From IMG/VR virus record IMGVR_UViG_3300028392_000067, positions 1-64,000 of that record: 64,000 nucleotides of DNA. The stretch is one strand, 5' to 3'. This DNA comes from a virus. The translations under genes were made by a program, and so were the position numbers. Within the stretch, counting starts at the first letter, position 1; every line of letters starts with the position of its first letter. Of this stretch, positions 56,727 to 63,426 are shown piece after piece. A model generated the notes under the pieces. That model had not been told where the DNA came from. It was given only the letters and a program-made list of their open reading frames with translations, and searched no databases.

Positions 56727-57449
56727 ATGCAATGGGAAAACACACACATTAGATCAAGTTCTGTAGGTTATTTAATGACTGAACCTGTAACAAAAGCTGA
56801 TAAAGAAGCTGGATTATTATCTAAAACAGCTCAAAAACATTTATTAGATGTTTATATAGCTGAAAAGTATGGACGTAAAAAAGACATACAAACTAAACAA
56901 ATGAAAAAAGGTATAGAAGTAGAACAAGAGTCTATTGAATTACTTTCTATGTACTTAAAAATGCCATTTAGCAAAAATGACCAAAGGTTTACCAATGATT
57001 ATATAACTGGGTTTCCAGATATTATTGATAATGATAGAATAATAGATATTAAGTCTAGTTATGATCTTTGGACATTTATTGGTAATATACCAGATAAATT
57101 AGATAGTTTATACTATTGGCAAATGCAATCATATATGTGGTTAACTGGAGCAACTAGTGCTGTTATTGCTTATTGTTTAGTTAATACACCAGAAAGCATT
57201 ATTGAACAAGAAAAATATTATTTGCTTAAAAAAATGGATGTTATTTCAGAAGAAAGTCCTGAGTATGTAAAAGAAGCAATGAAAATAGAGTTTAACATGT
57301 CTTTTGATGATATTTCTATTAATGAAAGAGTATTAATGTTTAATGTTAAAAGAAATGAAGATGATATATTAAGAATTCAACAAAAAGTAGAAAAAGCAAG
57401 AGAGTTTTTAAGAGAATTAGAACAAACACATTTAAACTTTAATAAATAA
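56727..57449 (+). CDS. PD-(D/E)XK recombination nuclease
   Basis: 240 aa. YqaJ/lambda-exonuclease-like: an N-terminal RSSSVGYLM (Ser-rich start of the family), the Glu-containing KGIEVEQESIELL (near residue 62), and the metal motif GFPDIID...IIDIKSS (Asp94, Asp103, Lys105). It resects DNA ends for recombination with a single-strand-annealing protein that is not seen here. The stop shares one base with the methyltransferase start (57449). Confidence 0.8.
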   Translation: MQWENTHIRSSSVGYLMTEPVTKADKEAGLLSKTAQKHLLDVYIAEKYGRKKDIQTKQMKKGIEVEQESIELLSMYLKMPFSKNDQRFTNDYITGFPDIIDNDRIIDIKSSYDLWTFIGNIPDKLDSLYYWQMQSYMWLTGATSAVIAYCLVNTPESIIEQEKYYLLKKMDVISEESPEYVKEAMKIEFNMSFDDISINERVLMFNVKRNEDDILRIQQKVEKAREFLRELEQTHLNFNK

Positions 57450-58279
57450 TGACACATGGAAGTTTATTCAGTGGGATTGGTGGATTTGATTTGGCAGCAG
57501 AATGGATGGGATGGGAAAATATATTTCATTGTGAGTGGAATCCATTTGGACAAAAAGTTTTAAAACATCATTTCCCAAATTCAATAAGTTATAATGACAT
57601 TACTAAAACAGACTTCTCTATTCACAAAGGAAACATTGACATCATTACAGGAGGATTCCCATGCCAACCATACTCAACAGCAGGGAAACGAAAAGGGAAA
57701 GCCGATGAAAGACATCTCTTTCCTGAAATGCTACGAGTTATTAAAGAAATACAACCCAAATGGATTATTGGGGAAAACGTTCGTGGACTTGTTAGTTGGG
57801 GGGGGGATTGGTATTCGAAGAGGTGTGTGCTGACTTGGAAGGGCAAGATTATGAAGTACAATCGTTTATTATTCCTGCTGCAAGTGTCAACGCACCGCAC
57901 AGAAGGGATAGAATCTGGTTTATTGCTCACTCCAACAACAAGGGAAGAGGTGCAAGACTTAGAGAAGTTTCAAAAGAGAATGGAGAAATACCCGAATGGG
58001 ACAACAATGCCAAATCTAGCAACTCAAGTAATGAATTTACTACCAACTCCTTCAGCATTCGATTGGAACACAGCTCAAAGACAAGAGAAATACAAAATTC
58101 GGAAGGAAGTTCAGAAACAAAAAGGGATAAGCCTTCATTATCCACTAAAACAAATGGTAATGGATATAAATCCAAGTGGAAAAACTTCCCAACTATCTCC
58201 CCAATTTGTTCTGGAAATGATGGGATTCCCAAAAAACTGGACGGAATTACCTTTTCAAAATGGAGACAAGAATCAATAA
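57449..58279 (+). CDS. Cytosine-5 DNA methyltransferase, frame-0 form
   Basis: 276 aa. Residues 1-117 hold motifs I (FSGIGGF, 7-13), IV (GGFPCQPYS, 68-76, catalytic Cys72) and VI (GENV, 108-111). Reading the G9 run (57798-57806) in phase gives a C-terminus with YSKRCVLTWK (residues 121-130), two LL-x-TPT/LPTP blocks and SQLSPQFVLEMMGFPKNWTE near the end. I recognise that as the second half of many phage cytosine methyltransferases (a target-recognition region). But it lacks motif VIII and the GNA motif X, which lie in the -1 frame at 57796-58368. Both products look meaningful, so the gene seems to encode two enzymes. Alternatively one frame is an artefact of tract length. Confidence 0.75.
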   Translation: MTHGSLFSGIGGFDLAAEWMGWENIFHCEWNPFGQKVLKHHFPNSISYNDITKTDFSIHKGNIDIITGGFPCQPYSTAGKRKGKADERHLFPEMLRVIKEIQPKWIIGENVRGLVSWGGDWYSKRCVLTWKGKIMKYNRLLFLLQVSTHRTEGIESGLLLTPTTREEVQDLEKFQKRMEKYPNGTTMPNLATQVMNLLPTPSAFDWNTAQRQEKYKIRKEVQKQKGISLHYPLKQMVMDINPSGKTSQLSPQFVLEMMGFPKNWTELPFQNGDKNQ

Positions 58280-58368
58280 AAGCAGCAGGAAATGCAATAG
58301 TTCCACAAGTAGCTTATGAAATTTTTAAAACAATAAAAAAAATGGAACTAAATGAATCAAGAAGTTAA
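57796..58368 (+). CDS. Cytosine-5 methyltransferase, alternative C-terminus (-1 frame)
   Basis: This frame is open from the G tract; a TAG at 57793-57795 closes it just upstream, so entry must occur at the run. It reads GLVFEEVCADLEGQDYEV, then motif VIII (NAPHRRDRIWFIAH), and ends with motifs IX-X (SIKAAGNAIVPQVAYEIF). Joined to frame 0 by a -1 shift or one extra G, it gives about 306 aa with motifs I, IV, VI, VIII and X in order, a complete cytosine-5 methyltransferase. Internal start at TTG 57796 would give a fragment without the catalytic Cys. It overlaps frame 0 over about 480 bases and the next gene by 17. Confidence 0.75.
   Translation: MGGGLVFEEVCADLEGQDYEVQSFIIPAASVNAPHRRDRIWFIAHSNNKGRGARLREVSKENGEIPEWDNNAKSSNSSNEFTTNSFSIRLEHSSKTREIQNSEGSSETKRDKPSLSTKTNGNGYKSKWKNFPTISPICSGNDGIPKKLDGITFSKWRQESIKAAGNAIVPQVAYEIFKTIKKMELNESRS
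57798..57806 (+). repeat. G9 tract at the frame switch
   Basis: Nine consecutive G lie in codons TGG-GGG-GGG-GAT of frame 0. One added G or two lost join the first half to the -1 frame. The zero frame also contains G GGG GGG, a slippery heptamer that could allow -1 ribosomal frameshifting. In so AT-rich a genome, a run this long is unlikely without selection. Confidence 0.85.
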
Positions 58369-59047: not shown

Positions 59048-59119
59048 TGCTGGTTGGTGTAATTGGCAACACTACAGATTTTGATTCTGTCATTTAAGGT
59101 TCAAATCCTTAACCAGTAA
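59048..59119 (+). tRNA. tRNA-Gln (anticodon TTG)
   Basis: A full cloverleaf can be drawn: acceptor TGCTGGT/ACCAGTA (one G-T pair), D stem GTGT/ACAC, anticodon stem ACAGA/TCTGT with loop TTTTGAT (anticodon TTG, reads CAA), and T stem TAAGG/CCTTA with loop TTCAAAT. CCA is not encoded, as usual in many phages. The hairpin-rich gap just upstream (about 59001-59028, ACCATT/AATGGT) may be part of the transcript. Confidence 0.85.
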
Positions 59120-59136
59120 CAAAAAAAATAAAAAAT

Positions 59137-63036: not shown

Positions 63037-63107
63037 TTGTAGCTACAAAATTAGGAAAAAATTTGAAATGTAGCTACAAAAATTAAATTAATTATTTCAA
63101 AATGTAG
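63037..63107 (-). promoter_or_regulatory. TGTAGCTACA operator pair and promoter
   Basis: The 10-bp palindrome TGTAGCTACA occurs at 63037-63046 and 63069-63078, 32 bp centre to centre (three turns). A half site, TGTAGC, lies at 63103-63108. On the minus strand TAATTTTG (63052-63045), a TAnnTTTG box, overlaps the first palindrome. AT-palindrome-like AATTAAATTAATTA is at 63081-63094. This is an operator arrangement for the gene starting at 63027. Confidence 0.7.
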
Positions 63108-63112
63108 CCCCC

Positions 63113-63188
63113 AATCCCCCCCCTAATCCCCCCAACATACAAAGAAATAAAGAGAAGCGACCACCACAAACAAAACAAAACGCAACCA
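63113..63188 (-). repeat. Right arm of 76-bp inverted repeat
   Basis: Reverse complement of 1-76 with one mismatch (63183). It carries C8 (63116-63123) and C6 (63128-63133) on this strand, which are G runs read leftward toward the ribbon-helix-helix gene. It lies 85 bp before that gene's start, as the left arm lies about 213 bp before the gene at 290. Confidence 0.9.
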
Positions 63189-63426
63189 ATTGCAAGAGAA
63201 AAACCACCAACCCAAAACCCCCGAAACCCTCACCACCACCACCACACAAAACAAAGGCAAGGGCAAAACCTAAAAACGAGGTACACAGTTAAGGGAATGC
63301 GAGACCCCGAAGAAGAAGCAACGGCCAACCGCGGGGGGTACCCTTAAGCAGGTATTGATGGAGTTGTTTTCAAAAAATAGGGTGTTATGGAATTAAAAAA
63401 TGTGGTATATTTGGTAAAAATTTGGT
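63189..63426. other. Gene-free A/C-rich region right of the repeat
   Basis: No frame is convincing. From about 63134 to 63265 the plus strand is nearly T-free, with CACCACCACCACCAC (63231-63245). A GC-richer island (63300-63345) pairs ACCCCG (63304-63309) with CGGGG-GGT (63332-63339). TATATTTG at 63406-63413 could be the -7 box for the gene at 63427. It may hold an origin or an untranslated RNA, both speculative. Confidence 0.45.

Follow-up and report, generated by a model that had tools for sequence, protein, structure and literature searches.

The window (64,000 nucleotides of a 64.5-kb virus record; GC 30.8%) carries a locus that appears to encode a phage C5-cytosine methyltransferase made of two polypeptides, alpha and beta, whose genes are nested in different reading frames. 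The alpha chain would provide the AdoMet-binding and catalytic domain (motifs I to VIII) together with motif X. The beta chain, whose translation presumably begins at an ATG inside alpha in the +1 frame, would contribute a variable target-recognition region and a segment resembling motif IX, and the two chains would assemble into one enzyme. In the window, a G9 tract that is one base short breaks alpha and beta at the same point. What remains in frame 0 is a chimera of the alpha N-terminus and the beta C-terminus from which motifs VIII and X are missing, and it is probably inactive. Slippage at this tract, as a hypermutable site, most likely turns both subunits off and on reversibly. We regard this account as a whole, comprising the nested two-subunit enzyme, the breakage of both genes at the G9 tract and a probable slippage switch, as likely to be correct. 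Among the relatives, the two genes are nested, both frames are constrained and one-base shifts at the tract recur.

Table 1. Features of the methyltransferase locus and its upstream neighbour, in window coordinates.
Feature	Position	Strand	Details
Exonuclease gene (phage), upstream neighbour	56727..57449	+	PHROG 5715 exonuclease, E 6e-47
Frame 0 ORF	57449-58279	+	ATG 57449; 276 aa
Alpha N-terminal half, frame 0	57449..57797	+	motifs I, IV, VI
Beta N-terminal part, +1 frame	57594..57806	+	start ATG 57594, MTLLKQTSLF...
Alpha motif IV GGFPCQ	57650-57667	+	frame 0
Alpha motif VI ENV	57773-57781	+	frame 0
-1 frame	open from G9 tract to 58368	+	TAG at 57793-57795 blocks upstream
G9 homopolymer at alpha/beta junction	57798..57806	+	both nested genes broken here
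Alpha C-terminal half, -1 frame	57805..58368	+	motif VIII, unconstrained linker, motif X
Beta C-terminal part, frame 0	57806..58279	+	WYSKRCxLTWK segment, LLxTP modules, motif-IX-like segment
Alpha motif VIII APHRRDR	57892-57912	+	-1 frame
Motif-IX-like QLSPQFVLEMMGFPKNW in beta C-terminal part	58190-58240	+	frame 0
Alpha motif X GNAIVPQ	58288-58308	+	-1 frame

The alpha start codon is overlapped by the final base of the upstream exonuclease gene. A single tRNA-Gln gene (TTG anticodon) lies at 59048-59120, a few hundred bases 3' of the methyltransferase locus. Elsewhere in the window, positions 63100-63260 are strongly C-rich and G-poor, with a C8 run and runs of C4-C6, in a phage whose remainder is 31% GC.

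By its motifs and profile matches, the alpha gene is a predicted C5-cytosine methyltransferase with motifs I-VIII and X. The Pfam profile PF00145 runs through frame 0 (profile positions 2-116 against residues 2-116, E 7e-36) and then through the -1 frame (profile positions 122-324, E 5e-10), which makes the -1 frame the genuine continuation of the enzyme. Motifs I, IV (PCQ), VI (ENV), VIII (HxRxR) and X (GN) occur in order, are distributed over two frames in the window, and form invariant columns of the alpha alignment. A PDB profile search matches the alpha N-terminal half to M.HhaI and M.HaeIII. The predicted structure of the alpha chain of one relative (L040) has a confident catalytic part that resembles M.HhaI over about 165 residues, and its residues 167-283, with pLDDT below 50, are predicted to form a disordered linker.

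A preliminary description of the locus had set out the two frames, the blocking TAG and the G9 tract, and the coordinates bear out this layout. It had further proposed that both endings are methyltransferase-like and not the product of a random shift. When each C-terminal half was searched separately, the -1 half matched PF00145, as noted above, and the frame-0 half matched PHROG 1008, which is called 'DNA methyltransferase' (E 6e-13); no Pfam family matched the frame-0 half. On these profile matches, both halves can be assigned to conserved families, far past chance. As had been suggested, the overlap is coding in two frames that both specify methyltransferase parts, and the G tract alters the relation between them. 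What had been missed is that the frame-0 C-terminal half has its own N-terminal part upstream of the tract, in the +1 frame, beginning at ATG 57594. To be in frame for alpha and beta alike, the G9 tract of the window would need one base more (or two fewer). Frame 0 is therefore the alpha N-terminus fused to the beta C-terminus, and the +1 frame of beta is sent into a stop at 57831-57833.

Alpha and the +1 beta frame each run unbroken across the junction in all of the 83 distinct intact loci that are close and in the majority of wider relatives, and the small chain lies inside the large one, in another frame, in 83 of these 83 close loci and in the wider set. The beta start ATG occupies one fixed place (-68) in 80 of the 83 and falls one codon earlier in the two other loci displayed (L014 and L057). 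These relatives bear directly on the earlier proposal that the locus is one gene with two alternative C-terminal halves picked at the tract, yielding two enzymes or a single on/off enzyme. Frame 0 does run into the beta C-terminus in -1 genotypes, and the fusion frame is common to 14 loci. However, the fusion is without motifs VIII and X and is kept in no clade, and the C-terminal half in question belongs to a separate +1 gene whose own start is conserved among the 83 intact loci. The alternative-endings model was dropped once the relatives showed two co-existing nested genes, each continuous over the junction, and we now consider it very improbable. The part of the proposal that stands is an on/off effect of the tract, extended to both subunits together; a choice between two enzymes does not, since the frame-0 protein is a chimera.

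Dual coding of the overlap is strongly supported. Across the 83 loci, beta runs for 178-411 codons free of stops, whereas the third frame has 12-46 stops. Synonymous-codon shuffles of alpha in the close loci place a median of 6.9 stops in the beta frame and leave it stop-free in at most 0.5% of cases. The alpha Asn codon beneath the beta ATG is AAT in 77 of 77 sequences, which are related and so do not represent 77 independent events, versus 51% AAT elsewhere in alpha.

Selection was examined by counting substitutions at codon positions in 37 independent pairs of close loci. In the N-terminus, where alpha alone is encoded, alpha positions 1/2/3 have.034/.025/.158 substitutions per site. The pattern is reversed in the variable region (.181/.051/.020) and returns to that of alpha in the tail past the beta stop (.079/.031/.218). 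Amino-acid identity in the variable region is.945 for beta,.794 for alpha and.805 for the unread third frame in these pairs, and the corresponding values are.817,.542 and.558 in a wider set of 57 nested loci with GC of 39-68% (22 pairs). Between motifs VIII and IX, the codon-position substitutions reveal constraint on beta only. Homologues therefore do not conserve a single frame, which the preliminary description had raised as the outcome that would count against two-frame coding; both frames are constrained after the tract.

One could still suppose that beta has no function and that its frame merely shadows alpha, held open by composition. Consistent with this idea, beta conservation 5' of the junction is no higher than that of the third frame, and thus only the start and the openness of beta are constrained there. 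However, the variable region constrains beta, with alpha behaving there as the unread third frame does, the beta ATG is conserved, and the shuffles rarely leave beta free of stops. The selection tests (shuffles, codon positions and the wider set) rule out a passive shadow, which we find scarcely credible. Because ordinary error cannot explain two conserved frames, we interpret them as a nested two-subunit enzyme. The natural reading of the substitution pattern is that alpha would be a mere open linker where the target-recognition region lies, with this region being read in the beta frame. This pattern indicates that the overprinted beta chain is the probable carrier of target recognition.

The division of motifs between the chains was examined with residues 269-327 of M.HhaI as the stretch for comparison, which was checked against the PDB and in which motifs IX and X lie next to each other. 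Residues 269-296, the motif IX part, align with the beta profile (pairwise E 7e-4 and 3e-4; hhalign probability 26-40%), and the alpha profile aligns weakly to the motif X part (E 0.037). With that weak alignment for motif X, the large chain has motifs I-VIII and X without IX and the small chain has motif IX, as in M.EcoHK31I. Sequence searches of beta against solved structures gave no match, and its predicted structure is of low confidence (pLDDT 53, pTM 0.24) and too weak to interpret. The beta chains of loci L002-L009 and L095-L174 contain one to four LPTP modules, spaced by a median of 39 residues, which are perhaps tandem target-recognition modules. In one beta (L029:3146-4348), about 100 extra residues lie between modules, like an inserted domain, and the alpha frame stays open.

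Viral contigs were pattern-scanned for the junction with at least nine Gs at spacings of -1, 0 and +1, which yielded 13, 43 and 1 methyltransferase contigs, respectively. A tract dataset for which the upstream half was also required, and to which the window was added, has 14 loci at -1, 41 in frame and 1 at +1 among those with at least nine Gs; these loci were fetched by the tract itself, such that the counts measure the in-frame fraction among long tracts and not the frequency of long tracts. All 52 short-tract loci are in frame and none is shifted. Intact relatives have G10 or an interrupted tract at the junction, and the nearest kin of the window (L011) is intact with G4AG5. Outside the methyltransferase gene, runs of at least nine G or C residues occur three times in 651 kb.

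On a tree of 107 loci, the -1 state requires 10 changes (at least nine of them forced), every one at the tips. The shifted loci have no other stops, and their alpha and beta are otherwise intact. Comparison of shifted loci with in-frame sisters gives alpha positions of.147/.055/.077, a selection signature that is unchanged, and identities of.884 for beta,.825 for alpha and.786 for the third frame. Thus, the lesion is recent and confined to the tract. A hypermutable repeat with recurrent frame changes among close relatives is what characterizes a phase-variable locus, and both are found here. Breaks in both genes recur at the G tract, which is probably a switch. If the claim of a reversible biological on/off switch is taken on its own, we lean only slightly in its favor. 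The heterodimer, the enzyme activity and a biological origin for the change in tract length are inferred.

The chief competitor to a biological switch is that the nested genes are real and in frame in the phage itself, and that sequencing or assembly wrongly dropped one base from a long G homopolymer. The contigs with a shift are assembly consensuses, and long runs of G are prone to error; one of these contigs (L182) bears a sample number in an older style and may date from earlier sequencing. Shifts are found only at tracts of at least nine Gs and are mostly deletions, near-identical sister species differ in tract state, and everything outside the tract is intact. The bias toward -1 (14:1) would also be expected from polymerase or PCR slippage. 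Nevertheless, 15 of 56 long-tract consensus contigs are shifted, which is high for majority-rule assemblies. In addition, six of six pairs of contigs that are at least 99.6% identical agree in tract state, four of them as -1/-1, though the members of a pair may share reads and their agreement is explicable by shared sample origin or re-assembly. On balance, we judge an error to be unlikely, while giving it appreciable weight.

A second competitor would make the -1 genotype functional, with both full-length proteins restored at the G tract by slippage during transcription or by programmed -1 ribosomal frameshifting. Frame 0 reads G GGG GGG, a slippery heptamer that the preliminary description had pointed out as a possible basis for translational choice. 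A single -1 slip would mend alpha and beta together, and both C-terminal halves are still under selection in -1 lineages. However, most relatives need no shift, and the RNA that follows the tract in the window is no more structured than expected by chance (z -0.25 and -0.5). A stable -1 clade that uses recoding was also sought, and the tree has the -1 state scattered at tips only. The heptamer is therefore present without the stimulatory structure or the stable lineage of a programmed frameshift, and translational choice seems to us quite improbable. We continue to favor slippage that alters the tract itself.

A tract of this kind was also noticed in a second, unrelated phage methyltransferase of the adenine type (...DWGGGLVWMNPPF...), where G10 or G11 lies just before the catalytic NPPF motif. 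The tract is in frame in L192 (minus strand, ~980) and one base short at L184:13523. Homopolymer tracts may thus be a recurring feature of methyltransferases in phages.

Bacteroides, Porphyromonas, Paenibacillus, deep-sea and other phages have an uninterrupted methyltransferase gene that contains PHROG 1008 as a long open frame at +1. Nested alpha/beta pairs are also present on plasmids or in genomes of an archaeon, alphaproteobacteria, lactobacilli, Acinetobacter, Acidobacteria and Ignavibacteria, and a scan of genomes with a narrow beta profile returned four loci, all nested. In most records examined, gene callers report only one nested gene or truncate the other, and thus the enzyme family is mis-annotated. 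For example, the public records L003, L007, L002, L004, L009 and L240 annotate the pair unevenly, and the variants seen are alpha alone, beta with a truncated alpha, or both, as in Paenibacillus phage Shelly, where the beta frame is annotated 'g55 internal gene'. We would give an even chance to the broader proposal that a contingency tract in the alpha/beta overlap of a phage switches both chains together, and that the recognition chain, with one to four LPTP modules, is an overprinted protein of widely differing phages and prophages. A real switch at the tract would mean that phages phase-vary the methylation of their own DNA, with consequences for how they escape restriction and methylation-dependent nucleases.

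PHROG 1008 and Shelly 'g55 internal gene' are the beta frame itself, and the nested two-subunit arrangement is not described for either in the records and papers searched. A C5 methyltransferase from a Bacillus anthracis prophage has been predicted to have its site in common with M.EaeI (PMC4722110); this is no more than a lead. M.AquI is a C5 methyltransferase of two chains with separate catalytic and recognition parts (PMC3404938). The phage enzyme would likewise place these parts on different chains, but M.AquI has motifs IX and X together on its small chain, whereas motif X goes with alpha in the phage locus and the genes are nested.

A C5 methyltransferase of two polypeptides is a known arrangement, exemplified by M.EcoHK31I, and by this comparison the phage locus would be a variant of it. 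Lee, Kam and Shaw reportedly described in 1995 that the beta chain of M.EcoHK31I is encoded within alpha in another frame. This two-polypeptide enzyme (YGGCCR) has motifs I-VIII and X on its larger chain and motif IX on its smaller chain, and its predicted target-recognition domain has been put in the larger chain (PMC3404938). M.EcoHK31I, which we compared by description, is the closest known enzyme to the phage alpha and beta, with the same motif division. However, codon-level selection locates the variable region of the phage family in the beta frame, and a recognition role for beta runs counter to where this domain is usually placed in M.EcoHK31I. No neighboring restriction enzyme was seen at the phage loci examined, and neither M.EcoHK31I nor a linked restriction enzyme was found in E. 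coli genomes and plasmids. The phage loci also differ from M.EcoHK31I in having a long G tract at the junction. In this respect they resemble bacterial phase-variable methyltransferases with homopolymer tracts, which likewise undergo slippage at a simple repeat inside a methyltransferase gene, but the present locus is phage-encoded and a single tract breaks two overlapping subunit genes.
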